NCBI GenBank assembly: GCA_037783545.1
Contig: JBBELK010000380.1
Coordinates: 124,001-188,000 of the forward strand
Source: Henricia sp. BOLD:AAB3569
Lineage: Eukaryota > Echinodermata > Asteroidea > Spinulosida > Echinasteridae
Direction: 5' to 3'
DNA length: 64,000 bases
The notes under the pieces were generated by a model that ran no database searches, was not told the origin of the DNA, and saw nothing but the letters and a program-made list of their open reading frames with translations. Position numbers and translations under genes: made by a program. Every line of letters begins with the position of its first letter. Position 1 is the stretch's first letter. Positions 530 through 32,580 of this stretch are shown in pieces.

Positions 530-1186
530 TTATTCTAGTTTTGCCTTTAGATTTCCTATAGTACTCTTCAACACCTTGCCAATGTCGCTGTTGTTTAAAA
601 CGAGTTCATTGCTCGTGCGGAATGTGATTTCTTTTTCTTCAATTTCCCCCTGCGCGTTTAATTTTCTTAGAGTTACACGTAATCCCAACTGAAAATTGTA
701 ATTTGGTTTGTTCCGTATAATTTCAAGCATTTTACCAATTTTTTTATTTCTGTTGTATTTGAAGAAATTGACGTAATCTAAATTCTCGCGGCCAATTTTT
801 ATTTCGTAATTTTGAATTACGTTGGCAAAGCGTTGAGGCACTATCCCCCTAAAATCTATTGGCTTTATGACCCCGCTGTATATAGGACGCCAATAATTTC
901 TTATCGACTCTAAGTAATCACCCTTTGTATACTTGTTACTTTTGCCCGTGGCGTCAACCTTATTTATGTTATACTTGTCGATTAGCGATAGCAGACTCTG
1001 TTTAGCTTGGCCTCTAATATTTTTGAACTCATCCGCATATCGCTTGACCGTTTTTATTAGTTGCCTTCTCGTTCCAATTTTCTCACCGACGTCAATTACA
1101 GCCGGTAGATTTTCATCGCTAATAAACTTGGCAAGTCGTTTTTTGTTCCATCCAGAATATCCCGTTGGCTTATGTCCAGTTTCCAT
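530..1186 (-). CDS. Orphan ORF, 218 residues, unknown function
   Basis: No family is recognised. The ORF stays open 57 codons further upstream, but the ATG at 1184-1186 is preferred: a TATATATAAA run lies immediately upstream, and the extra codons cross an A/T-rich stretch and a hairpin. The protein starts METGHK and is rich in Lys, Asn and Ile. It has no signal peptide or membrane segment that I can see, and ends in a Lys-rich tail. It lies outside the repeat terminus that ends at 415, with its 3' end facing it. The composition and TATA-adjacent start resemble genes of viral or Polinton-like origin, but no diagnostic motif supports that. It could also be chance or an exon of an unseen gene. 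Confidence 0.4.
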   Translation of the reverse strand: METGHKPTGYSGWNKKRLAKFISDENLPAVIDVGEKIGTRRQLIKTVKRYADEFKNIRGQAKQSLLSLIDKYNINKVDATGKSNKYTKGDYLESIRNYWRPIYSGVIKPIDFRGIVPQRFANVIQNYEIKIGRENLDYVNFFKYNRNKKIGKMLEIIRNKPNYNFQLGLRVTLRKLNAQGEIEEKEITFRTSNELVLNNSDIGKVLKSTIGNLKAKLE

Positions 1187-1276
1187 TTTATATATATAAA
1201 AGATAATCTTATAGTTATTTTTAAAAAAATATCTCATTTTTTTAGGCATCAAAAACCAACAATGGTTTTTGATGCC
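1187..1276 (-). promoter_or_regulatory. TATA-like run and perfect hairpin upstream of the orphan ORF
   Basis: A TATATATAAA run sits directly upstream of the ATG at 1186. A hairpin with 13-bp perfect arms (GGCATCAAAAACC, 1245-1257, and its complement at 1264-1276) and a 6-nt loop lies about 60 bp further upstream. Both are visible in the sequence; a promoter role is inference. Confidence 0.3.
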
Positions 1277-1357
1277 TCGATTACATTCCGTTTTTAAAAT
1301 AATTTTTAAAGAAAACTCTGGGTTAGCGTTTTTGTGTTTTGGCCTAGGAGCCCCCAT

Positions 1358-1830
1358 TTACATACTACTCATGGTAATATTTCCATTCCCTATTATTAAC
1401 CCTAACACTAACATGACTAGTAACAGTACGTAACACTCGTCAATCTTCCAAAATCAATGTCACATAGGCCGAGGCCTACACCCTGCCCCTGGCCGATGGT
1501 AAATTACGCACGTGTACAGACGCGGACAAAAGTCCATACCATAGGCCTACCTTAAGTTGATGTTCCTTCCTCCATGTCATGATACCGTATACGTTTAGAA
1601 CACGTTCTTTCGGGAGTATTGTAAGGCTATAAGTTATTCCAAAAGGATACTGTCCACTTGGCAATGAAAGTGGGATTCATTAGACGTGTATAATCTGAAA
1701 ATAAAGCATCCATATTTGTCTATATTTCACGCACTCTACTGCAGCTAGCTGTGCTTACTGTACTTACTGCACTGCTGCGTTAATGGATAGCGCCACCTAC
1801 TGGCGAAACAATAGACATTTCACTCGAAAT
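1358..1830. other. Gap with no feature seen
   Basis: A/T-rich unique sequence. A 62-codon minus-strand ORF here has no recognisable features and is not called. The word TAGCGCCACCTA near 1788 resembles the GCGCCCTCT words seen elsewhere in the window. Confidence 0.5.
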
Positions 1831-1914
1831 GCGACAATGCGACGGCACGACGCGACTATGCGACGGCACGACGCGACAATGCGACGGCACGACGCGACAA
1901 TGCGCCGTTGACGG
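1831..1914. repeat. 21-bp minisatellite, about four copies
   Basis: The unit is GCGACAATGCGACGGCACGAC. Because 21 is a multiple of 3, the minus strand reads as a heptapeptide repeat (RRIVASC), which is a by-product. Related sequence continues at 19583-19650, on the far side of the Transib element, so this block appears to be the target region of that insertion. Confidence 0.85.
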
Positions 1915-1954
1915 CGTAAACGGCTAAGGAACATAATATCAACAAGCGACAATG

Positions 1955-1959
1955 CGACG
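1955..1959. repeat. Left target-site duplication CGACG of the Transib element
   Basis: It is identical to 19583-19587 immediately outside the right terminus. It lies in the gcgac-rich minisatellite, so a chance match is more likely than usual, but it abuts both CACAGTG ends exactly. Confidence 0.75.
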
Positions 1960-1987
1960 CACAGTGCCTCAGAAGGTGACAAAAACG
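1960..1987 (+). repeat. Left terminal inverted repeat with a 12-RSS-like layout
   Basis: Heptamer CACAGTG (1960-1966), a 12-bp spacer (1967-1978), then ACAAAAACG (1979-1987). The heptamer equals the vertebrate recombination signal heptamer and the nonamer matches ACAAAAACC at 8 of 9 positions. The opposite end repeats the heptamer and most of the spacer, and at the same distance has TAAAAAACG, a weaker nonamer. Both ends therefore have 12-bp spacing; a 12/23 asymmetry is not seen. Confidence 0.8.
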
Positions 1988-2352
1988 GCGAAAACTAGAT
2001 TTTCATCAAATATATACATATTATACACCAAAATAGGGGTTTTTGGGGTCGAGTAACACATTCGGGGTCAGAATGGAGATTTGAACACTCTGATTGGCCT
2101 GTTACTGTAAAGCTGGGATATTTGATGGGTCAACTCTGTTGTTTGTGGCTTGTGACATATCAAAGAGCAGGGTTTTTGACAGGCTAATCCATTTTTACGT
2201 TTATTATTCAAATAGAGCATTTTGATTGGCAAATCAATGTCATTTATGGTCCATTCTATATACATGTTTTACCATTTATGTAGCAAATTCAAATATTTCT
2301 TTCTCCCTTGATTTATATCCTCTGATCTAATCGATTGACCACTAAGTTTCTC
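1988..2352. other. Transib 3' flank without features
   Basis: Between the left terminus and the transposase stop. A/T-rich, no ORF or repeat of note. Confidence 0.5.
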
Positions 2353-3484
2353 TCAATTTGAAAAAATAAATAAATAAAGCAACAAAAAATATATTTCTAG
2401 TTCTAGTTGTTTAACAAAGCCAACACTATGAACATCTAACAATGGAAATTGGGCACACACCATTGTTACTAACAATGGGGTTACAATGAACATGTACATG
2501 TTTTGCTCATAGTGCAATACGTCAGGGGTCAGGGACTTCCCACATTTATTTTTGAACTTTTTGAAACTGATAGATGAAATAACAGGGTCAGATCGAATGA
2601 GAAGTCTTGCTTTTCGGATTTCCTTGTTCTGGGCCTCCTGAGCTTCTTCAGAGTAGAACCCGATTGGCAGCTCCAAAGCAGCAGAGATCTTTGTACCATG
2701 TTCTAGCAGTTTGTGTACTGTATGAGGTATATGGTGTACTGTAGGAGGTATGATGTACCAGGAGTACTTGTCCAGGATCAAATCTGCAGTTTCTTGACAG
2801 TAGTTTTCGAACCTTGCCTCCTCAAGCTCAAAGCCTGAGCACACTGCCTTCAAAAGTGTGCTAAGCTTGGTGATGACCTCCACATCAACTCCAGTAATAT
2901 TTGAGAAGATTTCTGCTTCCTCAAAAGCTCTCCTAGCAGTATTGCCACCATTGGTATTGCCGAAACCTGGTTTGGGGATGTCTACAAGCAGACTTAGCTC
3001 CTCCCTGCATCATTCTTTTTCCTCCTTAACACTGATGCCTTTTCATCTGGTTTTCTGGCTTGGAATGTTGTTATTTCCATTTTATAGCCCAGATGAAGAA
3101 TGTACTCAAAAGACCTGATCCAGCAGTGGAGAGTTGAGAGTCCCAGCTGCAGAGCTTTCTCATCACACTCTCTCTGCCTAACATGCTCAAGGTTGTTCAT
3201 CTGGGATGGCTTTGCACCGCACACATTACAAGATTGAGTTGAACTATTGTCCATTAGGGCATTCACAACCTTGCCATCAAACATTGTGAAGTCTATTTTA
3301 AACCCAATCTTGTAAAGATTGCTTTCTGTATGAATCTCCTTGTGCTCAAGATTCTCCACCTCACATCTCAATCTTTCCTCCTCCAATTTGCACAATTCTT
3401 TGGTTTCCTTATTGTATTGCAGGTTAACAGGGCGGCAAAAATGTGTACTTCAAGGCTTTTTATTTTTCCAAACGTTCTGGCCAT
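2353..3484 (-). pseudogene. Transib/RAG1-like transposase, C-terminal part, frameshifted
   Basis: From the retroelement insertion site the minus strand reads NGQNVWKNKKP, a TGA stop, then STHFCRPVNLQYNKETKEL. It continues into a 133-codon open stretch holding the second catalytic Asp context FTMFDGKV and a zinc-binding CNVC. A frameshift near 2994 leads into VDIPKPGFGNTNGG, then a 176-codon open stretch with H-x4-H (HKLLEH) followed by SEEAQEAQNK, where the catalytic Glu is expected. These match the Asp, C2, H2 and Glu order of Transib and RAG1 cores. Damage: one stop, one frameshift, a small duplication just before the H-x4-H motif, and an apparent deletion of about 20 residues after the Glu motif. 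It is interrupted upstream by element B. Confidence 0.8.
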
Positions 3485-3693
3485 TGTTACGGTGCAGAAA
3501 ATTCCACACCGCAACAAGAATACGAAAATATGGAAACGCACCAAAAACAAGAGACAATAAGTCAAACAAGCTCACTCTGATGTAACAAGAAAGAAATTAT
3601 ATAATTTGTGTACTGATCTCAACAATCAAAACCAAATGCACAGTGATTAAGTTTGCATAATTTCACAAATGAGCATTTTAGATCTTACAATAT
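3485..3693 (-). repeat. 3' LTR of element B, first part
   Basis: Homologous to 14332-14551 or so in the other LTR. It breaks at 3693, where element A begins, and resumes at 8668. Confidence 0.88.
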
Positions 3694-3992
3694 TGTAACG
3701 CCGTTCCCAATCGGCTAGCAGTGGGCGCCAGCACCATTCCACGGTTAGGCCGGCTGACGAGCTGAGGGCGCTAACACGGTTCCACGGAGCCGGTTGGCGC
3801 GAGCCCCTGCTAGAAGGTTGGGACACCCGTCTCGGCGGGAGACGTTTCCTGAGCGCCATCTTTGTTGTTTGTTGTTGATGAGGAAGGATCGACCCAAATA
3901 AACGTGCGGTATTTTCTTGCTGATAATTGTCTTTTCCTGTGTGTTCTTGTTTGTGCCGAGTTTCTTAACAAGTGGGATAAATTCTTGTTACA
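3694..3992 (+). repeat. 5' LTR of element A
   Basis: It has TG...CA ends. The first ~168 bp match 8500-8667 with a few substitutions. An AATAAA polyadenylation hexamer lies at 3897-3902. The bases after the LTR (CCGGCGGCAGCGGTGG) should contain the primer-binding site, but I cannot assign a tRNA. Confidence 0.88.
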
Positions 3993-4548
3993 CCGGCGGC
4001 AGCGGTGGGGCGGCACACTGAGAGAAATACAGGTAGAATTCGAGATTTTCAAGCAATGAATTCACGAGACCGGGGAGGTCTGGTATCAAACTCGCCGCGG
4101 GGCGGGGACATGCCAGAAAGTGACGAGTACCAGTACGGAGGCCAGACTGACAAGGCCCACAGTACGTTCGTAACTGTCGATAAATTACTGTCCTTCTTTG
4201 GGGAAAGCCCGAGAGAAAACTCCGGGAGACATGGGAATACTGGGAAAATGTTAGAGCCTGAGATTGTAGAGGGGAGGCCGGTACGTACAGTACGGCCTGA
4301 CCCTGCCAATCCGAGTAGTTTTTGCAGGGGGTTGGATCAAACCAGCGACCCATGGGCAGACCTAAGTTCGACCCCGGTGCATTTTGAGCCGGGAAAGTTC
4401 CGGCGGGTTCCGGAGGATCCACCCCGCACCGTAAACGACCACGTGGCTACGCTCCGTTTGGAGCCCCGCACGCTACCAGACTACGACGCGGAACCTCCGG
4501 ATCGACTCCGCACCGCACACAACCATGTCGGACGGCTCCCCTCGGAGC

Positions 4549-6905
4549 TCCGCACTGCACAACCCTATGGGGCGGAGCACGAGAATTTGCTCCGCACTGC
4601 ACAACCCTATGGGGCGGAGCACGAGAATTTGCTCCGCACTGCACAACCCTATGGGGCGGAGCACGAGAATTTGCTCCGCACTGCACAACCCTATGGGGCG
4701 GAGCACCAGAATTTGCTGCGCACTGCACAACCCTATGTGGCGGAGCACCAGAATTTGCTCCGCACTGTACAACCCTATGGTGCGGAGCACGACAATTTGC
4801 TCCGCACTGCACAACCCTATGGTGCGGAGCAAGTGAATTTGCTCCGCACTGCACAACCCTATGTGCGGAGCACAATAATTTGCTCCGCACTGCACAACCC
4901 TATGGTGCGGAGCAAGTGAATCAGCTCCGCACTGCACAACCCTATGGTGCGGAGCACCAGAATTTGCTCCGCACTGCACAACTATATGGCGGAGTGCTCC
5001 CCTCGGAGCTCCGCACTGCACAACCCTACGACGCGGAGCAAGTGAATCAGCTCCGCACTGCACAACCCTATGGGGCGGGGAACGAGAAATTGCTCCGCAC
5101 TGCACAACCCTATGGTGCGGAGCACAAGAATTTGCTCCGCACTGCACAACTATATGGCGGAGGGCTCCCCTCGGAGCTCCGCACTGCACAACCCTACGAC
5201 GCGGAGCAAGTGAATCAGCTCCGCACTGCACAACCCTATGGGGCGGGGCACGAGAATTGCTCCGCACTGCACAACCCTATGGTGCGGAACACCAGAATTT
5301 GCTCCGCACTGCACAACTATATGGCGGAGGGCTCCCCTCGGAGGGGAGGCCGGTACGTACAGTACGGCCTGACCCTGCCAATCCGAGTAGTTTTTGCAGG
5401 GGGTTGGATCAAACCAGCGACCCATGGGCAGACCTAAGTTCGACCCCGGTGCATTTGGAGCCGGGAAAGTTCCGGCGGGTTCCGGAGGATCCACCCCGCA
5501 CCGTAAACGACCACGTGGCACCGCTCCGTTTGGAGCCCCGAACGCTACCAGACTACAGAGCGGAACCTCCGGATCGACTCCGCACCACACTCGACCAGGG
5601 AGAACAGCTCCGCTAGGAGCCCCGCACGCTACCAGACTACGACGCGGAACCTCCGGATCGACTCCGCACCGCACACAACCATGTCGGACGGCTCCCCTCG
5701 GAGCTCCGCACTGCACAACCCTATGGGGCGGAGCACGAGAATTTGCTCCGCACTGCACAACCCTATGGGGCGGAGCACGAGAATTTGCTCTGCACTGCAC
5801 AACCCTATGGGGCGGAGCACGAGAATTTGCTGCGCACTGCACAACCCTATGGGGCGGAGCACCAGAATTTGCTCCGCACTGCACAACCCTATGGGGCAGA
5901 GCACCAGAATTTGCTCCGCACTGTACAACCCTATGGTGCGGAGCACGACAATTTGCTCCGCACTGCACAACCCTATGGTGCGGAGCAAGTGAATCAGCTC
6001 CGCACTGCACAACCCTATGGTGCGGAGCACGATAATTTGCTCCGCACTGCACAACCCTATGGTGCGGAGCAAGTGAATCAGCTCCGCACTGCACAACCCT
6101 ATGGTGCGGAGCACCAGAATTTGCTCTGCACTGCACAACTATATGGCGGAGGGCTCCCCTCGGAGCTCCGCACTGCACAACCCTACGGTGCGGAGCAAGT
6201 GAATCAGCTCCGCACTGCACAACCCTATGGTGCGGAGCACCAGAATTTGCTCTGCACTGCACAACTATATGGCGGAGGGCTCCCCTCGGAGCTCCGCACT
6301 GCACAACCCTACGACGCGGAGCAAGTGAATCAGCTCCGCACTGCACAACCCTATGGGGCGGGGCACGAGAAATTGCTCCGCACTGCACAACCCTATGGTG
6401 CGGAGCACAAGAATTTGCTCCGCACTGCACAACTATATGGCGGAGGGCTCCCCTCGGAGCTCCGCACTGCACAACCCTACGACGCGGAGCAAGTGAATCA
6501 GCTCCGCACTGCACAACCCTATTGGGCGGGGCACGAGAAATTGCTCCGCACTGCACAACCCTATGGTGCGGAACACCAGAATTTGCTCCGCACTGCACAA
6601 CTATATGGCGGAGGGCTCCCCTCGGAGCCCCCGCACTGCACAACCCTACGACGCGGAGCAAGTGAATCAGCTCCGCACTGCACAACCCTATGGGGCGGGG
6701 CACGAGAAATTGCTCCGCACTGCACAACCCTATAGTGCGGAGTACGAGAATTTGCTCCGCACTGCACAACCCTATGGTGCGGAGCACCAGAATTCGCTCC
6801 GCACTGCACAAACCTACGATGCGGAGCAAGTGAATCAGCTCCGCACTGCACAACTCTATGGGGCGGAGCACGAACAATTGCTCCGCACTGCACAACCCTA
6901 TGGGG
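4549..6905 (+). repeat. 42-bp coding minisatellite in Gag of element A
   Basis: The unit is CTCCGCACTGCACAACCCTA plus TGGGGCGGAGCACGAGAATTTG and variants, roughly 50 copies, interrupted near 5339-5690 by a repeat of upstream Gag sequence. All three forward frames of the unit are free of stops (LRTAQPYGAEHENL, SALHNPMGRSTRIC, APHCTTLWGGAREF), as are two reverse frames. Long ORFs on both strands here are by-products. Shorter variant units (CTATATGGCGGAGGGCTCCCC type) alternate in a higher-order pattern. Confidence 0.92.
5341..6420 (+). repeat. Segmental duplication of Gag sequence, about 1.07 kb, copy of 4267-5340
   Basis: The sequence from GAGGGGAGGCCGGTACGTAC at 4267 recurs at 5341 with its unique flank and then the minisatellite. 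The second copy has an extra segment near 5540-5620. The unit boundary at GAGGGGAGGCC in both copies suggests unequal exchange. The right end is approximate because it merges into the minisatellite. Confidence 0.75.
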
Positions 6906-8485
6906 CGCCACCGCGGAGCGGGAACCCGGATGCAGACGGAAGCAACACGCCAGCCTCGCAGCCACCCACGAGGTCCGATCCATCACCGGCGCAACCGACG
7001 ACCACAGGGCCAGAGAAACAGGAGCCGCCCGGGGGAGGTCGAAGACCGATGATGCTTCCAGATAAGTTTGACGGGGTTTCCTCGTGGTCGGATTACCTGA
7101 TCCATTTTGAAAGCGTCGCAACAGTCAACCAGTGGGACGAGGCTGAGAAGGCAATGTTCCTTGCCCCCCACCTGAAGGGCTCGGCGCTAGAGGCCCTGGC
7201 TGACATGGCACCAGAGGCGCGAAAGAAGTACCCCCGCCTTCTGGAGTACTTCGAACAACGATTCGGGATCACCGCCCAAATCCCATTACATCGGGCCCAG
7301 CTGTCGATGCGCACCAGAGGTCGGGACGAATCTATCAGCAGCCTCGGACAGTCTATACGACGGTTGGTTTCCAAGAGCTACCCGAACTTCCCCACGCAAG
7401 CGCGGGAGGACCTGGCTGTGGAGGCTTTCATGAATGCATTAGGCGACGAACAGCTGCAACGCCACGTCTTTTCGAGAAAGGCGACGACCCTGACCGAAGC
7501 CATCACCCTGGCCACGGAGATGGAGGCTTTCCCAGACTCTCAGGTGCAGAATAAGAAAGGGAAACAAGGAACCAGGGACTATAGGTCGGTGGTACAGCCA
7601 ACACAACCTAAACGAGAGTCGAACATTAACAACGATAATACGGGCTACGTGCACAGGCTATCCGACCGATCGATGTTGAAGTGTTTTGGGTGCCACGAAA
7701 TCGGTCATTTTCAGCGTGACTGTCCGCACAGGAAGCCTAAATCGACACAGCAGACAACCGGTGGAGGACCCCCAGGACAGGACCAGACGACCCAGGGCTG
7801 TATCCACTGCCGGCACTGCGGGAAGCCGTTCAACAAGTCGAGCAACCTGCGGAGGCACCACCGAACAGCGTGCCCGGCGCTACACCCGACGATGCCGTTC
7901 GAGTGCCCGTTCGGTTGCGGGAGGAAGTTCTACCGGGAGGACATGCGGCAACGCCACCTCCAGTACTGTGCCTGGCGACTAGGGAGGGTGGCGACCGTGA
8001 CAGCCACCGACGAACTGGATGTGTACGCCAGCGACGACGATCTGAACGGTAAAGGCAGGGAGCGGAGGGGGCTGGCGACCACACGGAGCCGCCCCCAGCC
8101 GCTGCGGCACTCCCGCCGGAGTCCAACCTGTCGGAGCCGCCAGTTCGTGGGCGAGATAGCACCACCTCGGAGCAACCCCCGGTCGCTTCTGCACCCCAGC
8201 CGACTCCACCTTCCCCCGGCCGCTGGCACGGGGAAGAGGACCACGCCCGTAGAGCCCCGATGTCGCCCCCATCGCGCCATCGGCACCACGAGTGGACCCG
8301 GTCCCGGACGAGATCTCCACCGCGTCTGCGAAGGCAGCCGCCAGAGGGGAGCCGCATCCGGCCGGAGCGGTCCCCGACTTCACCCCCATGTGTTTATTTT
8401 TCTAGCCATGCTACCATTTGTAAAGGAAGCGTCTTCCCGGCGAGACGGCGGGGTTCGCTGCCTGCTTTGGGAACAAAGCAGGGTC

Positions 8486-8499
8486 CTCGAAGGGGGCTG
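8486..8499 (+). promoter_or_regulatory. Polypurine tract of element A
   Basis: CGAAGGGGGCTG lies directly before the 3' LTR start at 8500, the expected place for the plus-strand primer. Confidence 0.65.
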
Positions 8500-8667
8500 T
8501 GTAACGCCGTTCCCAATCGGCTAACAGAGGGCGCCAGCACCATTCCACGGTTAGGCCGGCTGACGAGCTGAGGGCGCTAACACGGTTCCACGGAGCCGGT
8601 TGGCGCGAGCCCCTGCTAGAAGGTTGGGACACCCGTCTCGGCGGGAGACGTTTCCTGAGCGCCATCT
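8500..8667 (+). repeat. Truncated 3' LTR of element A
   Basis: Matches the first ~168 bp of the 5' LTR (3694-3861) and lacks the last ~131 bp, including the AATAAA. Loss of the 3' end makes the copy immobile. Confidence 0.85.
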
Positions 8668-9465
8668 ACGGACTTTAAAGCAGGACTTGACAGGAAAGCG
8701 GACGGCTGACAACTCCACGAATTTGCTGGCAAACAGAATTAGGCTGCGACAGTTCGAGACGACAACATGACACTCAGTTCATAAAATGTCCGAATAATTC
8801 GCGAATCCTTCATCACAAAACAACTCCTTCTGTCAGGATGAACGCCAGGGGAAAAACACGCCGAAACTACACAGTTCGGTGATCAAATGTGGATAAAACT
8901 CCGTCGACAAACAACTTTCCAAAAGACAGTGATCCGGTCCAAAACGTGGCGAAAGCAGTAATACGTCCGAAGATCTGATGTACATGTAGTGCTAAATATT
9001 CAAAAAATCACTCTCTTAAATACTGTTCGATTCTTTCCAGAAAATATCAGAAAACCTTAGAACAATTTATAATCATCCAGACGAGTCCAGTCATATGTCT
9101 TGCTACAACTAGGAAAATCCCCAATTATCATGTGACAAAAACCTATTATGTCATTGGCTGCTACATCAGATTGTGAATATATAATGGTGTGAGTCATCAC
9201 ACGACGTCAATGAAAGGTCAATGAACAAAATATGTGTGACAGAGGTCATGAACTTTACAGTATACCGCAACATCTTTGCAACATTGTATCAAAAATCGTC
9301 TGGCTGTTTATGTACAGAATACTGTGGAATGCTCCATATGCTTACAATTACAATATGTTTGTAAACAGAAACAGACCAGAGAAAATACTAGAAGTGGAGT
9401 GGTTAAAGGTACACGCCGTTACAAATATGACAAATCATAGCCTATTTTGGTGTGTGTACATAACA
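8668..9465 (-). repeat. 3' LTR of element B, second part
   Basis: Continues the LTR after element A. It aligns with 14574-15168 plus 15973-16218 and shows the empty site of the solo LTR found in the other copy. Combined LTR length here is about 1.0 kb. Confidence 0.88.
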
Positions 9466-9483
9466 TCTCCCCCAAAAAAGAAG
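9466..9483 (-). promoter_or_regulatory. Polypurine tract of element B
   Basis: On the minus strand CTTCTTTTTTGGGGGAGA abuts the 3' LTR start TGTTATGTACAC. The purine-rich part GGGGGAGA is the likely plus-strand primer. Confidence 0.6.
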
Positions 9484-9643
9484 ACAATTTACATGGAAAT
9501 TTTCGTTATAACTTTGACACAAACTTACAATTAAGTTAAGGTTAAACACTTACAGTAAACACATGGTTCAAACACTTTTTACCAAACTAATCAAAAACAC
9601 TTTGATCAAAATCTGTACTGGTGATGGAGCATAGATTTTTTTT

Positions 9644-10780
9644 TTAAACTCTAGACAGAGCGTCTGCAATAACATTGTTTTTTTCCGGCAATGTGCTTAA
9701 TCCTAAGTGGATATGGTTGCAAAATCAAACTCCATCGAAATAATCTCTGATTCTTTGTCTTAAATTTCTCTAAGAACACAAGTGGATTATGTTCAGTGTA
9801 AATGGTGGTTTTTTTCAGCACCATTAGTCACATACACTTCAAAGTGTTGCAAAGCAAGGACCAGACCCAACGCTTTTTTTTTCGATGGTTGAGTATTTGG
9901 CCTGGTGTTTGTTCAGTTTCTTATAAAAGTAACTGATCGGTCGTTCAATGCCTGACTCATCGTCTTCGAGCAAAACTGCTCCGACACCAACATCACTGGC
10001 GTCAATGGCTATTTTGAACGCCTTGTCAAACTTAGGTGCATTCAAAACTGGTTTGTTAGTCAGAATGGCTTTCAACTGGTCAAATGCATTTTGGCATGAG
10101 TCAGACCAAACAAACTTGACATTTTTCTGTAAGAGTTTAGTCAGTGGAGTGGCAATAGTGCTAAAATTTGGAACAAACTTCCTATAAAATCCACTCATAC
10201 CAAGAAATCGCATAAGTGTTTTTTTCCCAGTGGGAACAGGAAAGTCTTGAATGGCTTGTGTTTTGGCTATTCGTGGCAGCACGCGACCCTGACCGACCAC
10301 GTGACCCAGGTATGTCACTGTAGCTTTGGCAAATTCACTTTTCTTCAAATTCACCACTAACTTGGCTTCAGAAAGCTGGTCAAATAGGGCACCCAAGTGT
10401 TTGATGTGGTCTTCCCAACTATCGCTATACACCAACATGTCGTCAATGTAAACGACACAGTTCTCAAGTCCAGAAATGACTTTACTCATCATTCTCTGGA
10501 ACGTAGCCGGGGCATTTTTCATCCCAAACGGCATCTTTTTGCATTGGTACAGACCATCAGGTGTCACAAACGCTGAAATCTCTTTGGCTCGGTCAGTCAA
10601 GGGCACTTGCCAATAACCCTTTAACAGGTCTATCTTTGTGACAAATGCAGAGTTTCCTACTCGATCGATACAGTCTTCTAGACGAGGTATCGGAAAAGAG
10701 TCACTCTTAGTTCCTGCATTGACTTTCCGATAGTCGATGCAGAATCTAAGTGTGCCGTCAGGCTTTTGGTACCATGACAA
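9644..10780 (-). pseudogene. Element B reverse transcriptase and RNase H
   Basis: The reading begins inside the RT fingers (WYQKPDGTLRFCIDYRKVN), carries the catalytic YIDD box near codon 110, then a connection region and RNase H (IDASDVGVGAVL near codon 262; YSTIEKK). A run of nine A/T near 9883-9891 shifts the frame. Two further one-base shifts at A-runs separate the remaining RNase H blocks (YTEHNPLVFLEKF; IKHIAGKNNVIADALSRV), ending with TAA at 9644. RT copies element RNA into cDNA and RNase H removes the RNA strand. The region just downstream (9484-9643) holds only the short 3' untranslated part. Confidence 0.88.
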
Positions 10781-11471
10781 TGGGAGAACTCCAAGAACTC
10801 TGACTTGGTTCTATAATGTCATTCTCTAGCATGAATTTAATTTCCTCCCGAACTTTCGACAACTTGTCCGGGTTGAGTCGGTAGGGTGCCTGTTTTATAG
10901 GCCTTGTATCCCCTACATCGACATCATGAACTGCAACTGAAGTGCGACCTGGTTTATCAGAACAAACCTGCTCACACTTTTGGAGCAAGTCTGATAAGTC
11001 TTGTCGTTGGTCAATGCTCAAATGGCCAATAACCATATCCAAGTCAGCTAGAATTTCAGAATTCGAAAACTGAACAGTAAGAAAATCAATTTCAGATGTT
11101 TCTGTCTCGTGGTCACTTTGTGATTGGTCACTAACTGGCTCAACAACAATTACCCCCACAGGTTGGTTACGCTCATAGTACCTCTTGAGCATGTTAACAT
11201 GACAAACTCTTTGGTTCTTTCTTCGGTCTGGGGTACTTATGACATAATTCACATCATTGAGTTTCTTTTTGACACAGTAGGGACCACTGAACTTGGCTTT
11301 AAGGGGCTCGCCAGGCAGAGGCAACAGCACTATAACTTTCTTGCCGGGCTTAAAGATGCGGACTTCAGATTTCTTGTCTGCTCTTGTCTTCATGACCCGT
11401 TGAGATTCCTTAAGGTGTTCTTGAGCGACGGAACAAGGCTCTCGACAGCCTCTCTTTAAAGTTCGACACAT
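10758..11471 (-). pseudogene. Element B integrase C-terminus and start of reverse transcriptase
   Basis: After the integrase core the minus strand reads a GPY/F-like module (GEPLKAKFSGPYCVKKKL; HVNMLKRYYER), an acidic linker, then the RT N-terminus (IKQAPYRLNPDKLSKVREEI, IEPSQSSWSSPIVMV). One frameshift near 11430 separates it from the integrase core and another near 10765 from the rest of RT. That RT directly follows the integrase module in one reading shows the integrase-before-RT order is original to the element. Confidence 0.88.
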
Positions 11472-14200
11472 AGTCGAGCAGATTGGTCTCGTCGTCCTCT
11501 GCCAAAAATCTCTCCTTGATGAGTTTCAAAGGCCCCCTCACCTCATGACCGTAGACCAACTCAAATGGAGTGAAACCAGTCGACTCATTCGGGGAGTCTC
11601 TCGTGGCAAATAGCAGAAATGGAATTCCTTTGTCCCAATCGTCTGGAAAATCGTTGCAGTAAGCTCTCATCATATTCTTGAGGGTTTGGTGGTACCTCTC
11701 CAGAGCTCCTTGGGATTGCGGGTGATAGGCGGATGACTTAATCTGCTTTATCCCCAGTTCACGCAGAACTTCTTGAAACACATGGGACATGAAGTTAGAC
11801 CCCTGGTCAGACTGTACTTCTTTCGGTAGACCATATCTTGTGAAAAACTGCATAAGAGCCTCAACAACAACTTTGGCTGTGATCTTCCTCAGTGGAATGG
11901 CCTCAGGAAAACGAATTGACAAATCCATGATGGTCAACAAAAACTGGTGCCCAGACTTCGTCCGCGGCAAAGGACCAACACAATCCACTTGGACTCTTGA
12001 AAATGGCTCATCAAATGCAGGAATTGGAATCATCGGTGCAGGCTTAATAGACGGTTGAGGCTTTCCCACCATCTGGCATGTATGGCACGTCTTGCAGAAA
12101 TTCACCACGTCTTGGTGTAGCTTCGGCCAATAAAAATGTGCCATGACTCTAGACTGGGTCTTTCGAATACCAAGATGACCTGCAACTGGAATCTCGTGTG
12201 CGATTCTCAGGGTCTCGTCACGGTAGCAACGAGGAACAACAATTTGATGAACAATACTCCATTCTTCATCAGCTGGTTTCTGGTTAGGTCTCCATTTCCT
12301 CATTAACACGCCGGATTTGACGTAGTAGCATTCCGGAACCCCTCGAGCTTCTTCCTCGGAACACGCTGTCTGGGCGAGCTTCATCAAAACTTGGTCCACT
12401 TGTTGATGCTCTATAAGCGAGGAACGGCTAAACTTAGCATCTTGAGACACTCCCTCTTCTTCTAAATTATTGAAGAAGGTTTCAGCCAGCCAAACACCAG
12501 AGTCGTCCTCTATCGGCACTGACTCCGCAGCCTCCTTCTGCATCTGCTTCATATAAGATCTCGTTACTGCACATTCGGGGAAGATTTCTGGAAACTCCTC
12601 CTCCAAAGACTGAATTTCTGGTTCCTCCACAGGATTACCACAGACAATAGGGGATGCCGACACTTTGCCACCCGCGACGTCGTTGCCTAGCAAAAACCCA
12701 TCACCTTTCATCGGTAGACTAGGAACAACTCCAACAACCACAGGGCCAGTGAACAAGTCACATCTCAAATCTACCCTATGCAACGGGACAGGCATATAAT
12801 TACCCCCAATACCTTGAATCAACATCTTCGCATTCAGCGAACTTTCTGGAGACAAAGACAATACGTCCTCCAGCATTAGTGACTGTGACGCGCCTGTATC
12901 CCGCAGGATAACAACTGGATTATCGGCTTCATCCGTTGCGCTGGACACATCACCACGATAAATAAAATCTTTGTAGATTTCATCAACTCGGTCGATTTCA
13001 TCAACCATCTTCGAAGAAGAAACACGGTCGCCATCGGCCTCACCGGACTTCTCACGAAGTAGAATGTCCTTACGGACAAAAGCAACAGGCCTTTCAGAAC
13101 GCTGACGCTCATCAGCCAGGAACTTGAAGCATCTCGCCTTCGAGTGACCCTTCTTGTGACAGTACCCACACGGAGGAAACACGTTCTTCTTGGCGTCACT
13201 TGGCGAAGAAGACTTTTCAGTCGGCCCAGGATTTCCAGTGCTAGACTGTGCCTCGGAACCTGACTTGCCATTATCACTGTATTTGTAGAATTTCTTTGGC
13301 TGGAAATTATTGTTATTCTTGCTCATTTTGTGAGTTAAGTCATACTCATCAGCTATGATTGCAGCTTTTTTTAACTTAGTGATCTGGTGCTCTTCCAAAT
13401 GGGTTTTGATAATCAGGGGGACACTGTTTTTGAACTCTTCCATGAATACAACCTCTTTCAACTCAGAATAATTCTTCTCAACTTTGAGCGATTGATACCA
13501 ACGATCAAAACCAATTTCCTTTTGTCTAGCGAACTCAACGTAGGTATGGCCAAACGATTTAGTCAAGTTACTGAATTTCTGCCGATAGGCCTCAGGAACC
13601 AGTTCATAGGCATTCAAAATGGCTGCCTTCACTGTAGCATAATCACTACACTGGTCCTTGGAAAGTGTGGCACAGACTTTCTGAGCCTTACCCACAAAAG
13701 TGCTCTGCAGGAGCAAAGGCCAATACTTCTCGGGCCAACCGAGACTTTCAGCAGTTTTCTCGAAAGACAGAAAACAAGTTTCAATGTCATGTTCGTTGAA
13801 CTTTGGCACCAACCTAACGGTTTTCGCTAGATCAAAGTCACCTGGAGTTTTCACTTTGTCTGTGTTTTTATTAGCACCTAATTCAACTTCTTTCACTTTG
13901 AGGTCATGTTCGAGTTCAAGCTTTCGCATTTCAAATTCTCTTTCTTCCCTTTCCCTTTCTCTTTCAAGTCCAAGTCTGAGCTTTTCTTTTTCAAGCTCAA
14001 TCTTTCAAGCTCAAGCTCAATCAAGCGCCCTCCGCGAGAGCACTCACTAATCGATGCTTCTTAGCACTTCGAGAAATTTCTAGATCAAGAAATTTTGCAA
14101 GTTCATGCAACTCGTCTTTGGTGAGTTGCTGTAGCTTAGAAAGTGACAAATCTTCAGATTATGCGAAAGCTTGTGCATCGAACTGACTGGTACTAGCCAT
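11410..14200 (-). pseudogene. Element B Gag, protease and integrase core
   Basis: The start is the ATG at 14200 (MASTSQFDAQAFA), followed by a stop and a SAP-like stretch (LTKDELHELAKFLDLE), then frame changes in a Glu/Arg/Lys coiled region. From 13929 839 codons are open: a SCAN-like Gag capsid region (about 85-190), a CCHC knuckle (CGYCHKKGHSKARC, ~255), an aspartic protease motif (LRDTGASQSL, ~346), an H2C2 integrase zinc domain (~576-620), and the integrase core with Asp ~649, Asp ~708 and Glu ~744. The last two are spaced exactly DD35E. Gag with a SCAN-like fold and integrase before RT are known features of Gmr1-like elements. Confidence 0.9.
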
Positions 14201-14331
14201 GATGAAGAATGTATACACTACAATAACCAGCAAGCAAAAATACACAAAGTGTGTGACCTTGTTTGACAATATCGTAAACACGAAATGAAATTTTGCCTAT
14301 ATCGGTTTGTTTCCCGGACAGGCCCCCAATT

Positions 14332-16218
14332 TGTTACGGTGCAGAAAATTCCACACCGCAACAAGAATACGAAAATATGGAAACGCACCAAAAACAAGAG
14401 ACAATAAGTCAAACAAGCTCACTCTGATGTAACAAGAAAGAAATTATATAATTTGTGTACTGATCTCAACAATCAAAACCAAATGCACAGTGATTAAGTT
14501 TGCACAATATCACAAATGAGCACTTTAGATCTTACAATATAAACAAAAGATCTTACAATATAAACAAAAGATCTTACGGACTTTAAAGCAGGACTTGACA
14601 GAAAAGCGGACGGCTGACAACTCCACGAATTTTCTGGCAAACAGTTATCACGACAAATTAGGCTGCGACAGTTCGAGACGACAACATGAAACTCAGTTCA
14701 TAAAATTTCCGAATAATTCGCGAATCCTTCTTCACAAAACAACAGTACTCCTTCTGTCAGGATGAACGCCAGGGGAAAAACACGCCGAAACTACACAGTT
14801 CGGTGATCAAATGTGGATAAAACTCCGTCGACAAACAACTTTCCAAAAGACAGTGATCCGGTCCAAAACTTGGCGAAAGCAGTGCTAAGTCCGAAGATCT
14901 GATGTACATGTAGTGCTGTACTAAGTCCGAAGATCTGATGTACATGTAGTGCTAAATCTTATTCCAAAAATCACTCTCTTAAATACTGTTAGATTCTTTC
15001 CAGAAAATATCAGACACCTTAGAACAATTTAGAATCATCCAGACGAGTCCAGTCATGTCTTGCTACAACTAGGGGAATCCCCAATTATCATGTGACAAAA
15101 ACCTCTTATGTCATTGGCTGCTACATCAGATTGTGAATAAATAATGGTGTGAGTCATCACACGACGTCTGTTCCCGCGAGCGCCCAGAAAACCTAACTTA
15201 CTGGAGAGACTGTATAGCGCCCTCTCATGTTAAATCATAACTAGTTAAAAAGTTCGTTCACTTTAGTCTGTCACGTTTTGATCACTGCAAAGTTCCGAAA
15301 GTTTAGACTGAATTTATACCGTTTTGAAGGTTTCCTGACATTTGTTTAACCAGTGTTTATTACCAGAAGAATGCAAAGAGTCCTGTTATAGAAGTAAGTG
15401 TCTCAATCTTTGGTTATTTACGTGAAATGTGAGGAAACAAAAGCAGTTAAGATTTGTGCTAAACTTGACATGAGATTCACATGTAATTCAACATGTACCC
15501 GTATAGTTTAAGTAACACGCAGTTAAAGTTCAATTAAGTTTTCCTTTGTATAAGAACTGCCCAGATTACTACCCATCATTGTTTATACAAATTATATAAC
15601 CAGTTTAGTTAATGAATGGACTCAGACTCATTCAGTAAAGTCAGCAGACGGACTTTTCATGACATTTATTAATTGGTTTATTTAGGTAAACAGATATTTA
15701 CCTGCAAGCTACATCATATTTAATGAAGGAAGGACTTTAATTTATTGTTTGTTTCAGATCGAATGTCTACCAAGTAACAACGTATTTACGCTAACCAGTA
15801 AAGTACAAGTGTCTACGCTCTCCACGAAGTACATGTACATGTTAAACACTTGATCAGTCTTAGCTAATTCAGCGTTTGTAAACAGAAAACGGAGAAATAT
15901 AGACAGTTGTCAGTCATCCGATTTACAGGACTTCTTGCTCTGTTTGGTTGTGTTTCTTGACAATCCAACGTCAATGAGAAAAATATGTGTGACAGAGGTC
16001 ATGAACTTTACAGTATACCGCAACATCTTTGCAACATTGTATCAAAAATCGTCTGGCTGTTTATGTACAGAATACTGTGGAATGTTCCATATGCTTACAA
16101 TTACAATATGTGTGTAAACAGAAACAGACCAGAGAAAATACTAGAAGTGGAGTGGTTAAAGGTACACGCCGTTACAAATATGACAAATCATAGCCTATTT
16201 TGGTGTGTGTACATAACA
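14332..16218 (-). repeat. 5' LTR of element B, interrupted by a solo LTR
   Basis: It comprises 14332-15168 and 15973-16218. Compared with the other LTR it has extra copies of an AGATCTTACAATATAAACAA unit near 14525-14575 and a duplicated ~37-bp block near 14885-14950. Just inside, on the minus strand, TTGGGGGCCTGTCCGGG follows the LTR and should hold the primer-binding site; the tRNA is not identified. Confidence 0.88.
15169..15967. mobile_element. Solo LTR of a third retroelement inside the 5' LTR of element B
   Basis: The insert begins TGTTCCCGCGAGC, ends TTGACAATCCA (TG...CA) and is flanked by ACGTC at 15164-15168 and 15968-15972. The other LTR of B has a single uninterrupted ACGTC at the matching site. 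The 799-bp length, TG/CA ends, 5-bp duplication and lack of coding sequence fit a solo LTR left after LTR-LTR recombination. Family and strand are unknown. Confidence 0.82.
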
Positions 16219-16482
16219 CCATTGACTACAAGTTTGAGGGGAACTATTGCAGTTTGAAACAACTCTCCTCATTATTTAGGGCCTCCTCCAGGGGGGTTTC
16301 TTCATACCTTTCTCCCTGACCTTGCTCACAAACTTTATGACTGTCTGGTTTAATTCTTGAAGATTGACTTCCTCATTGCCTAGTCCTTCATTCCCCAAGA
16401 CTTTTGTCACTAGCTCTTTGGTAAGTTCTTGACTGGCTAGGCCTTTTTCCCTAATGGTGGGAATTAAATGTTTTCTCTTCAT
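16219..16482 (-). pseudogene. Transib transposase, segment upstream of the element B insertion
   Basis: The minus strand next to the insertion reads LFQTAIVPLKLVVNG, which joins directly to QNVWKNKKP on the far side of element B. This fits the conserved VPL(R/K)L...W(Q/K)N(P)...FCRP block of Transib transposases. Further upstream, in another frame, is a 68-codon open stretch (MKRKHLIPTIREKGL...), preceded by a pyrimidine-rich run with AG resembling a splice acceptor near 16495. I cannot find the first catalytic Asp motif between here and 19.5 kb, so it is deleted, decayed, or in an exon I cannot see. Confidence 0.6.
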
Positions 16483-17449
16483 GTTGACTACAAGGAAGAC
16501 AAAATGAACTGAAACGAAAAGTGAGTATATATGTATATTGTATGTGTGTGGGTTTACGGTAGCACCGTGTGAATCTCATTTGTATATGTGTGGTTCTGAA
16601 AAGAACCGGTGAGCGTGCTCTGTTCGTCTTCAGGAGTAATGCCGGACTCGTGATGATACAGGGCAATAAGTACTGGTTGAGGGCATTCATTGTACAATGT
16701 GTGCACTGAAGCGGCTGGCTTGGGTTGAGGAGGCGTGGTTGTGCTAGGATCCTAATACTGTGTGTCACACCTGTCTCGGGTTAATTTTTGGGGTAATCCT
16801 TTGACAGGCTGGTTCGTGTTAAAAGGAAATGTACTCAATAAAGAAAAACAGACGGAGAGCTGATTTTGTGTTGATCCTTCTGAACCGCGGTAATTATTAT
16901 TATCATCAAACAAAACAACAGGAAATACAATGGAGTTAAACAAAATGGCAATTCGTCGTAAAAGATCTTACAACGATAGATCTCGGGATGAACATGTAAT
17001 TATGAGAATCAACAATAATCGGTCAATTCAGAAATCAAGGAATGCAAATTTGAATGAAGTCACAAGCCGGTGACTCAAAGAACAAAATGGAAGGGCCGAA
17101 ATGTGATCAAATTCAATGCGTTATCAAAACATGTCACAGCCGAGATCTAACGTAATACACAATAATATTCATGGGGATTGTTGAGTAAACCTTAGTGAAA
17201 CAACAAACAATACAGTAATTGGTTGAACAGAAACAATAACAAAAGAAACTGGCTTAGCTGCACTTGACTTGATCTTGACTTGAACTTGACTTGAAAGCGT
17301 GGCTCGGGTTGGGCTCCGATCCGGACAAGTCGCTGTCTAGTCAAGATAGGTCCAGTCCAACGGTCCCAAGGTAGACTAGGGAAGGGGGAGTCGAAGAGAC
17401 GAACCGGGTCGTCTCCCTAAACGATGCCTGTGGACGATGGATGTGCTTG

Positions 17450-17496
17450 CTGTAGCAGCAGAGCACAATGGAAAGGGTGAGAAGACTTAAATTGAA
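17450..17496 (+). repeat. 47-bp direct repeat, first copy
   Basis: Begins CTGTAGCAGCAGAGCACAAT. An identical copy lies at 18486-18532, 1036 bp downstream. Confidence 0.8.
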
Positions 17497-18485
17497 GATC
17501 AAACTTGTACAAAAACTTGTCTTGGAGGCCAAGGAAACTCCGAGACTGTCTTCTCAACAAAGGCAAAATCGTTTCTTCCTTAGGGTCAACACAATTTTGA
17601 TTATAAATAATTAAGTATAACTAAACTAATTTAACGTAATAAGTGTGCGAAGGAAAATATTAAATTCAGCTGAGTAACGTCCAAATGAAACAAATCTTAA
17701 CGGTAATACAGTTTGTGCATCAACAACAATGCAATTCGGAAACCACCCTGGGTCATAATCAATAACAAACAAAATGTCCACCCAGGAACAACTTTGGGGA
17801 ATGTCTCCATGGCAACAATATTTCACAGTGAACAGTGACCACCTGTTCTGGAGTTAAGTGATTAATGGTCAGTGGCAAACAGGGTGGGTGAGCCCATCAA
17901 GGTCAAATTGTGGTACATTGGCCCACATGCAACACATGGGTATGCAATAAAATCAGGAGGAGTAAATTAATGGGGATAGACTAAAAACCAGCTGTTTGTT
18001 TGGGGAATGATACCGATTAAATGTACACTGCATGAGCTCGCTTAAAGGTGCACTACATGTATAAGGGTATGTGTGAACTCGCTTTGTACATGACCAAAAA
18101 TAAATCTAGTGTCAAAATACAAGAAAGCGTGAATGGACATTCTGGCAACTTGAATGAAATGTCAAATAAAATATATATTTCGTCAGTTAGCGGCAAATTC
18201 ACACTTCTAGATTGAATAAACACGAGCCGCTGTATCTGAAATAATATAGCAGAATCTTAATTATTAAAACGCTAAACTAAATTAACAATTAGAACAATGC
18301 AAATACTCGAGTATCCTGAGATAAAAAGATTAATTATAACTTCGGCTTTGTATCAAACACTGTTCGTGTGTTTAGCTCGAACAAAATCTAAAGTGGTATG
18401 TCCGACAACCAATCTCGTTTTCTCAGGCAGTTATCTCGAGTAGATACATTGAGAATTATAATATACAATAAAAATGGCAGCTTAC

Positions 18486-18532
18486 CTGTAGCAGCAGAGC
18501 ACAATGGAAAGGGTGAGAAGACTTAAATTGAA
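18486..18532 (+). repeat. 47-bp direct repeat, second copy
   Basis: Identical to 17450-17496. It could mark a local duplication or the edges of a rearranged segment within the Transib element. Confidence 0.8.
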
Positions 18533-19554
18533 TTGTTCTCCCAAACAATCGTGGACGTTTTAGGGAGGTCTAACAATATCGTCCGCGATTGGCAAGCGAA
18601 CGTCCGCGATTCGCTCCTGTACAAAACCAACGAGAGTAAGGAAAAATAGACTATGTCCAAACAAAAGAGGAACAAAGGGACGTCCGCGATTGTATGTTGA
18701 TTCGCACCTACATGCACTGCAATTACTTTTCCAACTACCTGATTGGCAGAACTTGTATCTATGGAGAGATAAGCCAATCAGGGGGCAAGAAAGGGGTGGA
18801 AACTTGAGCTGTCTTAAAAAGGGCCACACCGGTAGCTGGCTAACTTTTACGAGCCGCTGACAGGTTCGGCTCCAGTTTTCTTGGCAGAGCCAAACCACAA
18901 GGACCTTGGTCAGACTTATTCTGGCTACCATGCCCCAGATGGTAACAGGGTCTGACATGTGGTTGGCACCAGTGTGTTGGATATTGTGCGATGCATTCCC
19001 TAATCCCTATGTATGGCAAACTGTGGCCTTATGGGTTGACTTTGGGTATAGGAGTCCCGAATTTCAAATGTCTCTATCTCAAAAAAGAGCAGGAATGAGC
19101 AGCTGATTTCTTTTTTTACAATTCTCCACACAATAAGGATTCCCTTAGTGCAGATAATAGGGTGGAATTCCTTGGGACTAAAAAGTTCTGCTATTTTTCT
19201 TTTTTATTAAAACATTTTAAAAAGTGTTAAAAAAGGTTAAAAATGCTTAGTAATTTTCTTCCAGATTTAAGGTTATATTTTAAATGGTTGGCTTTTGAAT
19301 TTCAACTCTCAAGGCCAATAAATGACTTTGCCACATTTGGGGGCAACTTTTATCTTAATTTGGGCCTTCCGGGCTTAAAAAAGGGTTAACAAAATATGTC
19401 GCGAAAATTCGCGACATATTCGCGTATGTCGTTATTAGCATATTATAAAGCCTGGCATGGCCAAAAAACATTTTAAAACATGCACAAAGTGTATATTTTC
19501 TTATTCTATATGTCCTAAGGCACTTATAAATCAAAAATATTTTTCCTTTTTTGC

Positions 19555-19582
19555 CGTTTTTTAGCCCTTCTGAGGCACTGTG
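19555..19582 (-). repeat. Right terminal inverted repeat of the Transib element
   Basis: Read from outside inward: CACAGTG (19582-19576), 12-bp spacer CCTCAGAAGGGC, then TAAAAAACG. The heptamer and ten of the twelve spacer bases equal the left end. Confidence 0.82.
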
Positions 19583-19650
19583 CGACGGCACGACGCGACA
19601 ATGGGACGGCACGACGCGACAATGCGCCGTTGACGGCGCAAACGGCGACG
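19583..19650. repeat. Right target duplication CGACG and continuing 21-bp minisatellite
   Basis: CGACG at 19583-19587 repeats the bases outside the left terminus. The following GCACGACGCGACAATGGGAC units continue the minisatellite of 1831-1914 and end in the same GCGCCGTTGACGGCG sequence. Confidence 0.8.
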
Positions 19651-19914: not shown

Positions 19915-20238
19915 AATTTAAATTGGTATAGCATACCTTTTCGTCCTTGCGTATTCGTCTCGTGTGGTGATCGGCGTTGTTTAAAAAAAATAGTTTGGTG
20001 TGACGCGCATGCCGTCTATAGGCCGTATCGGATAGCTGCCATCATGTATATGGGTCGTCCATAAAGTACGTACGCAAATTTAAATTGGTATAGCATACCT
20101 TTTCGTCCTTGCGTATTCGTCTCGTGTGGTGATCGGCGTTGTTTAAAAAAAATAGTTTGGTGTGACGCGCATGCCGTCTATAGGCCGTATCGGATAGCTG
20201 CCATCATGTATATGGGTCGTCCATAAAGTACGTACGCA
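19915..20238. repeat. Tandem duplication, 162-bp unit x 2
   Basis: The two copies (19915-20076 and 20077-20238) are nearly identical and each ends GTCGTCCATAAAGTACGTACG. That word is recurrent in many animal genomes near transposon ends. A C-rich tract and GTACGCAATGTC follow at 20463-20510, so the region may be a remnant of an inverted-repeat element. Confidence 0.85.
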
Positions 20239-31221: not shown

Positions 31222-32580
31222 ATGACCATCCCAGCCCAGCCCAACCCTAAGCCATCCCAGCCCATCCCGAAGCTCCGAAGTCTAGCCCGAGACTGTTACA
31301 GCCCAGCCCGATGCTACCCCAGCCCATGCAGCTCGAAGCATATATGTCCTGCCTGAAGCCACCCTAGCCCATCCCGATGCCATCCGGCCCAGCCCGATGC
31401 CATCCGGCCCAGCCCGATGCCATCCAGGCCCAGTCCGATGCCATCCAGGCCCAGTCCGATGCCATCCGGCCCAGCCAAAGCCATCCCAGTCCAGCCCAAA
31501 GCCACCCCAGACCGAAGCCACCCCAGCCGAGCCTAAAGCCACCCCAGCCCAGCCCCAAGCCACCTGCCCCCAGCCGGAAGTTCAGCCCAGCCAGAAGTCA
31601 CCCCGGCCCAACCCAAAGCCAGCGCGAATCAATCCCGGCCCAGCGCAAAGCCACCCCGGCCCAACCCAAAACCACCCGGCCCAACCCGAAACCATCCCGG
31701 CCCAGCCCGAAGTCACCCCGAAGCCAGCCCAAAGCCACCCCAGACCGAAGCCACCCCAGCCGAGCCCAAAGCCACCCCAGCCCGGCCCCAAGCCACCCGA
31801 CCCCAGCTGGAAGTTCAGCCCAGCCAGAAGCCACCCCAGCCCAACCCAAAGCCAGCCCGAATTAACCCCGGCCCAGTCCCAAGCTACCCCGGCCCAGCCC
31901 AACCCAAAACCACCCCGGCTCAGCCCGAATCCACCTCAGCCTAGCCCGAGGCCATCCCGGCCCAGCACGAAGTCACCCCACGAAGTCACCCCACGAAGCC
32001 AGTCCAAAGCCACCCCAGACTAAAGCCATCCCAGACGAGCCCAAAGCCACCCCGGCCCAACCCAAAGCCAGCCCTAATCTACCCCGGCCCAGCCCCAAGC
32101 CACCCCGGCCCAGCCCCAAGCCACCCGACCCTAGCTGGAGGCTCAGCCCAGCCGGAAGCCACCCCGGCCCAACCCACAGCCAGCACGAATCCACCCCGGC
32201 CCAGCCTGAAGCCACTCCGCCCCAGCCTGAAGCCAACCAACCAAACCATCCCCATCCTCATCCCCATCCCCATCCCATTCCGCCCCAGCCCCAGCCCCAT
32301 CCCCGGCCGCAGGCCCAGGCCAGCCCATACAGCCGCAGCACACCCCAGCACAGTTCAGCCCCCACTAGCCCCAGCTCGGCTCGGCCCAGCCCAGCCCAGT
32401 CCGGCCCAGACCAGCCCAGCCCCAGCCCAAGCTCAGCCCAAGCCCAGCCCCAAGCCAGCCAGCCAGCCCAGCGCCAGCAGCCAACTCAGCCGAACCCAGC
32501 CCCCAGCCCAGCCCAAAGCCAGCCCAGCTAAGCTTGCCAGCCCAGCCCCAACCCGGCCCAACCCAACCCAATACAGTACA
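31222..32580. repeat. C-rich minisatellite (CCCAGCCCGAAGCCACC words)
   Basis: About 1.35 kb of irregular repeats built from CCCAGCCC, GGCCCAACCCAAAGCC and GAAGCCACCCC. The plus strand has few G runs while the minus strand has abundant GGG runs, so strand asymmetry is extreme. The apparent proline-rich (plus) and Gly/Trp-rich (minus) ORFs are by-products of composition. Confidence 0.85.

Follow-up and report, generated by a model that had tools for sequence, protein, structure and literature searches.

A window of 64,000 nucleotides from the genome of the asteroid Henricia sp. BOLD:AAB3569 (contig JBBELK010000380.1, positions 124,001 to 188,000; positions given below without a contig are those of the window) carries, at 1960–19582, a single Transib insertion of 17,623 bp with CACAGTG at both termini. 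Our analysis leaves little doubt that this element is a copy, old and inactive, of a Transib DNA transposon present in low copy number—an assignment that draws on both ends, on a 5-bp duplication together with a paralogous empty site, and on homology to HzTransib of Helicoverpa zea. The left end resembles the vertebrate recombination signal sequence with a 12-bp spacer (12-RSS), yet the ends of the family form a 37-bp block with two A-rich boxes, in which no separable heptamer–spacer–nonamer module can be distinguished.

The limits of the insertion are marked by four features, the duplications being taken from the letters and from the comparison of copies:

1955–1959, no strand: left target-site duplication, CGACG.
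1960–1996, plus strand: left end, a 37-bp conserved block (heptamer 1960–1966, spacer 1967–1978, box 1 1979–1987, box 2 1988–1996).
19546–19582, minus strand: right end, a 37-bp conserved block (heptamer 19576–19582, spacer 19564–19575, box 1 19555–19563, box 2 19546–19554).
19583–19587, no strand: right target-site duplication, CGACG.

The initial annotation had placed the ends at 1960 and 19582 with CGACG outside both, and the letters agree exactly. Since the insertion site is a CG-rich minisatellite, a 5-bp CGACG match alone would be weak evidence, and the matter is settled by the other copies. When the flanks are joined minus one CGACG, 70 of 73 positions agree with the minisatellite next to the insertion, which constitutes a paralogous empty site.

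Searching the 740.7-Mb genome with the 17-bp end, at no more than one mismatch, returned 18 places, against none for the reversed pattern; with other copies present, a chance match was rejected. The ends are thus retained elsewhere in the genome, which supports the initial annotation. One of the 18 places, C175, was left out, as its sequence differs past the 17 bases. Eight copies are two-ended, with sizes of 17,623 bp, 5,795 bp and, for the remaining six, 1,271–1,792 bp, and the short, internally deleted relatives share the same ends and CG-starting duplications. The duplications read CGACG in three copies, CGCCC in two, and CGTCG, CGGCG and TGTTG/CGTTG in one each; seven are perfect, and a CpG-to-TpG change would explain the imperfect one. 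All eight copies therefore carry 5-bp duplications that start with CG on at least one side, which upholds the earlier claim of CG-rich duplications and points to a GC-rich target preference of the family; 5-bp duplications (PMC4411706, PMC7204232) and a GC bias of targets (PMC8289069) have been published for Transib. The two CGCCC copies (C340 and C111) share 99.2% identity over 3.5 kb, flanks included, and hence represent one insertion copied later, which brings the count to seven insertions. Five further places (C380dup, C99, C396, C288 and C752) have one recognised end each and stand outside the duplication count. The first of these, at G000:C380:108900–112380, duplicates the left part of the insertion (window 1162–4650) at 99.3% identity; it lies ~16.3 kb upstream of the window copy, and the match ends within a 42-bp tandem array described below. 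In each of the seven remaining copies with two ends, the subterminal regions are 80–93% identical to those of the window, which marks the family as old.

Most of the 17.6 kb is foreign—a long terminal repeat (LTR) element with a second one nested within it, plus ~2.5 kb of unrelated DNA—and ~2.4 kb of the Transib itself is left. From left to right, the interior consists of the following parts:

2515–3228, minus strand: C-terminal transposase piece with HxxxxH and SEEAQEA, matching residues 387–641 of the relative P0001 (nine stops read through as matched).
3006–3479, minus strand: middle transposase piece with FTMFDGKV (second catalytic Asp) and CxxC, matching P0001 residues 303–462.
3485–16218, minus strand: Gypsy-type LTR retroelement inside the transposase gene, with CCAT at 3481–3484 and 16219–16222.
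3694–8667, plus strand (from the open reading frame, ORF, at 6563–8524): second LTR-like element, lying within one of the LTRs of the larger element.
16223–16543, minus strand: 5' remainder of the transposase gene, with the N-terminal piece MKRKHLIPTIREKG... (from the letters and comparison with C396).
16544–19059, no strand: ~2.5 kb absent from the short copies compared (C161, C162, C258, C340, C111 and C654).
19060–19545, no strand: right subterminal region common to the other two-ended copies (80–92% identity).

Three kinds of damage disrupt the gene: a frameshift, a deletion that covers the first catalytic Asp, and the nested LTR elements. The middle transposase piece is frameshifted relative to the C-terminal one, so the motifs listed by the initial annotation (FTMFDGKV, CxxC, HxxxxH and SEEAQEA) are indeed encoded on the minus strand at ~2515–3479, but across two frames. 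Relative to the C396 copy, 646 bp are deleted at ~16310, and with them the region of the first catalytic Asp, present in C396 as GFDGASSQS. The window copy is thus unable to encode a complete transposase. In the genome, where scoring covered the best candidates, 16 transposase matches were found; all are fragments (none spanning more than 255 of 652 residues), and 11 of the 16 contain stops. Judged from these sequences, the family is apparently extinct.

The larger LTR element encodes reverse transcriptase, integrase and a SCAN-type domain, and its terminal repeats are identical at 206/209 and 251/258 positions across the two parts compared. The nested element has 168-bp copies at 3694–3861 and 8500–8667 (166/168 identical) and includes ~56 copies of a 42-bp tandem repeat at 4547–6907; this array is partly open in frame, with repeated LRTAQPYGAEHQN. 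At the place of the unrelated 2.5-kb stretch, the C340 copy has ~460 bp. The stretch itself contains identical 47-bp direct repeats at 17450–17496 and 18486–18532, 1,036 bp apart.

The transposase is homologous to Transib, with the DDE core, CxxC and HxxxxH. In the phylogenetic tree, the window protein falls within the Transib clade beside HzTransib and a Hydra Transib, with a very long branch between it and RAG1; it groups with no other superfamily, in line with the Transib identity first proposed. HzTransib (PDB 6pqn and 6pqx; Subgroup II, defined as lacking the RAG2-binding α11–α12 region, PMC9435367) shares the core and the second Asp, CxxC, HxxxxH and final Glu motifs, although P0001 is only 36% identical to it. 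Structurally, P0001 superposes on HzTransib at 1.9 Å across 475 residues, a comparison that spans mainly residues 155–629; the N-terminal GRP domain, folded only as part of the whole protein, has no separate match in it. The closest named relatives are Hydra vulgaris Transibs (P0018 and P0043), compared by protein alone: they are different proteins, P0018 being 58% identical and in a supported clade with the window protein. No Pfam family was assigned to the window transposase fragments, which gives no help in deciding between Transib and the RAG-like (RAGL) transposons.

The host genome also contains RAG1-like relics, at G000:C842:402063–406085 (L062–L064), and one might ask whether the window element is a RAGL transposon of that host and not a Transib. 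We see practically no chance of this. RAGL transposons (ProtoRAG and protostome RAGL) do share 5-bp duplications and CAC ends with it (PMC7204232), but its transposase is of the Transib type, closer to Transib than to RAG1 or ProtoRAG, and its ends are unlike the protostome RAGL consensus CACTWMCAAAC... (PMC7204232). Lancelet RAG1L and vertebrate RAG1 are good matches for the C842 relics (E 8.5e-19 and 2.9e-12 for their open pieces), while HzTransib matches them only at E 0.25, whereas the window protein shows the reverse pattern; RAGL membership was accordingly rejected in favour of Transib. The relics also score above the cut-off for the RAG1 Pfam family (33 bits), and further along the same strand lies a separate 204-aa ORF, which carries the motifs CRVCG and GGRPPKRK as well as a RING-like stretch and might mark where a second copy begins. 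Transibs are single-gene elements that lack a RAG2-like partner. No RAG2 match was returned by the genome search, and the same search was equally silent in 14 of 14 control genomes, which makes this result uninformative.

The left end of the window copy reads CACAGTG-CCTCAGAAGGTG-ACAAAAACG and the right end, as the reverse complement inwards from 19582, CACAGTG-CCTCAGAAGGGC-TAAAAAACG; the outer 17 bases are the same at both, and box 2 is GCGAAAACT on the left and GCAAAAAAG on the right. For the family, we compared 11 left and 10 right ends, equal to nine plus nine insertions: C761 is the same as C288 in the compared parts and was counted once, while C380dup (99.3% to the window over 3,490 bp) and C340/C111 were kept as separate ends. 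Twenty of the 21 begin with CAC, a published trait of Transib ends, the exception being C396 (TGT), and 19 have the exact CACAGTG heptamer. Box 1, 12 bp from the heptamer, is ACAAAAACG in 8 of the 11 left ends, an 8/9 match to the nonamer ACAAAAACC; every right end (10/10) has TAAAAARCG there, with a match of 5–6/9. At a distance of 21 bp, box 2 reads GCAAAAACT in 6/11 left ends and starts with GCAAAAA in 8/10 right ends, and it scores 6–7/9 in 19 of the 21 ends (exceptions, at 5/9: C396 left and C161 right). At 23 bp the scores are 3–5/9 in left and 4–6/9 in right ends, and there is no 23-RSS partner.

The initial annotation had read both ends as 12-type with a near-exact nonamer, and hence the element as a notable natural intermediate towards V(D)J signals, in which both ends would be true RSSs made of heptamer and nonamer. 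The left ends lend this some substance: besides the 8/9 nonamer found in most of them, the shuffle probability at exactly 12 bp is 7e-4 for the window (0.017 at any spacing of 8–29) and 0.0015 for C258, and there is a weak alignment between the nonamer-binding region of RAG1 and the GRP region of Transib relatives. The right ends do not follow suit. That of the window scores 6/9 at 12 bp, little better than chance (0.037 at exactly 12 bp and 0.51 at any spacing of 8–29), so that the near-exact nonamer and the 12-type label hold for the left end and fail for the right; the label is also ambiguous because nearly all ends score comparably at 21 bp. Nor does the agreement between left and right consensus single out the first box (6/9 in box 1, 9/12 in the spacer and 7/9 in box 2).

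Conservation along the block tells against an RSS as well. Across the 11 left ends it amounts to 0.96 in the heptamer, 0.99 in the spacer, 0.96 in box 1, 0.93 in box 2 and 0.73 further in; the corresponding values for the 10 right ends are 0.99, 0.97, 0.97, 0.93 and 0.71. Because spacer and boxes are equally fixed, conservation does not support a nonamer set apart from the rest, and no RSS-like module stands out—although this contrast is a weak one, the copies being of recent common origin by the standard of RSSs. The bare pattern of heptamer, 12 bp and ACAAAAACG, at up to two mismatches, has 1,043 genome matches, fewer than the 4,649 of the reversed control, and is therefore not enriched. Eight exact matches to the left-end pattern exist, seven of which belong to the window's Transib family; the eighth, C525 (L008), shares no spacer and was taken as chance. 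With a right nonamer near chance, an incomplete transposase and a protein inside the Transib clade far from RAG1, the intermediate reading is very unlikely and is not supported. Moreover, Transib ends that resemble RSSs, 12/23 pairs among them, had been published before (PMC8355894), so that no new intermediate would be involved. Compared with the vertebrate 12-RSS and RAG1, the element thus has an identical heptamer, a left nonamer of 8/9 at 12 bp and a core fold in common, but differs in its right nonamer, its fixed spacer, the lack of a 23 partner and the long branch to RAG1.

A different reading takes the ends as those of a usual symmetric Transib, with the 21-bp box as the functional A-rich contact and the 12-bp box incidental or accessory. 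We consider this quite possible, if short of probable. Box 2 scores 6–7/9 in 10/11 left and 9/10 right ends, and symmetric Transibs are given spacers of 20–22 bp (PMC8355894, Fig. 2 legend), next to 12/23 pairs in Drosophila Transib5 and Anopheles Transibs. Within the family, however, box 1 is conserved like box 2, and a score of 6–7/9 at one fixed spacing is weak in itself (shuffle probability 0.014 left and 0.046 right for box 2 of C258). Furthermore, symmetric ends such as those of HzTransib are described in PMC8289069 as having little or no nonamer similarity, whereas the left end of the window family has such similarity. Both boxes jointly are rarer than either alone in C258 (1e-5 left, 0.0015 right); this was a plain shuffle, with A-runs not kept together, of a sole copy picked because both its ends are free of lesions. 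Drosophila Transib5 and Anopheles Transib2 and N1–N3 likewise have a heptamer and nonamer-like boxes at RSS-like distances, but with one 12 and one 23 end, where the present family has A-rich boxes at 12 and 21 bp at both ends (PMC8355894).

By analogy with HzTransib and RAG biochemistry, an active transposase of the family would have bound both ends as a dimer, nicked at the 5' C of CACAGTG and then formed a hairpin on the flank, and the ends would have been inserted into CG-rich DNA across a 5-bp stagger; the short copies would have been mobilised in trans. The GRP domain of the transposase may have touched the A-rich boxes, as the RAG1 nonamer-binding domain touches the nonamer. Transib relatives share a GRP-containing region (consensus of 49 sequences) that aligns with this RAG1 domain, and a GRP nonamer-binding-type domain is reported in both Transib subgroups (PMC9435367). 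Several observations weigh against our interpretation of the element. The GRP motif falls in the deleted part of the window copy (C396 reads GIPRKSWEDMGDRSQR), and the alignment of the GRP region with RAG1 is weak by itself (E 0.011–0.014 for the stretch). As no intact copy was found among the best-scored transposase candidates of the genome, activity and end recognition of the family are predicted properties.

Additional features were observed around the insertion and elsewhere in the genome. A perfect 162-bp tandem duplication (19915–20238) lies just beyond the right end, and a 275-aa ORF with no Pfam family (530–1357, minus strand) lies beside the minisatellite. Proline-rich low-complexity tandem repeats with long plus-strand open frames occupy 31231–32528, and what looks like one and the same tandem pair of 67 bp is present at three places (54507–54642, 55801–55936 and 62187–62322), in both orientations. 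A different, insect-like Transib relic was found at G000:C64:2097675–2097923, with a lone CACAGTG end (L035:7704) flanked by CGCTG ~3 kb off; this unpaired, unconfirmed end has A-rich runs near both the 12- and 21-bp distances.

The literature searched contained no description of the window's Transib family, nor of boxes paired at these two distances (12 and 21 bp)—a weak absence, as most subscription papers lay outside the search. The element represents a new family of a known Transib kind, whose RSS-like ends, 5-bp duplications and GRP domain have each already been published. It is highly improbable that both A boxes, which follow the heptamer at 12 and 21 bp in a 9-bp phase, were real GRP contacts and the dual-box end a precursor state; if they were, 12-type and 23-type signals could arise by losing opposite boxes, with a 1–2-bp shift—a simple route to the 12/23 asymmetry. 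The RAG1-like relics place the remains of Transib and of a RAG-like gene in one genome. The family corrects a tempting over-reading of the left end as a 12-RSS and, with its seven two-ended insertions, adds one more apparently extinct Transib family to the argument that RAG signals derive from Transib ends.

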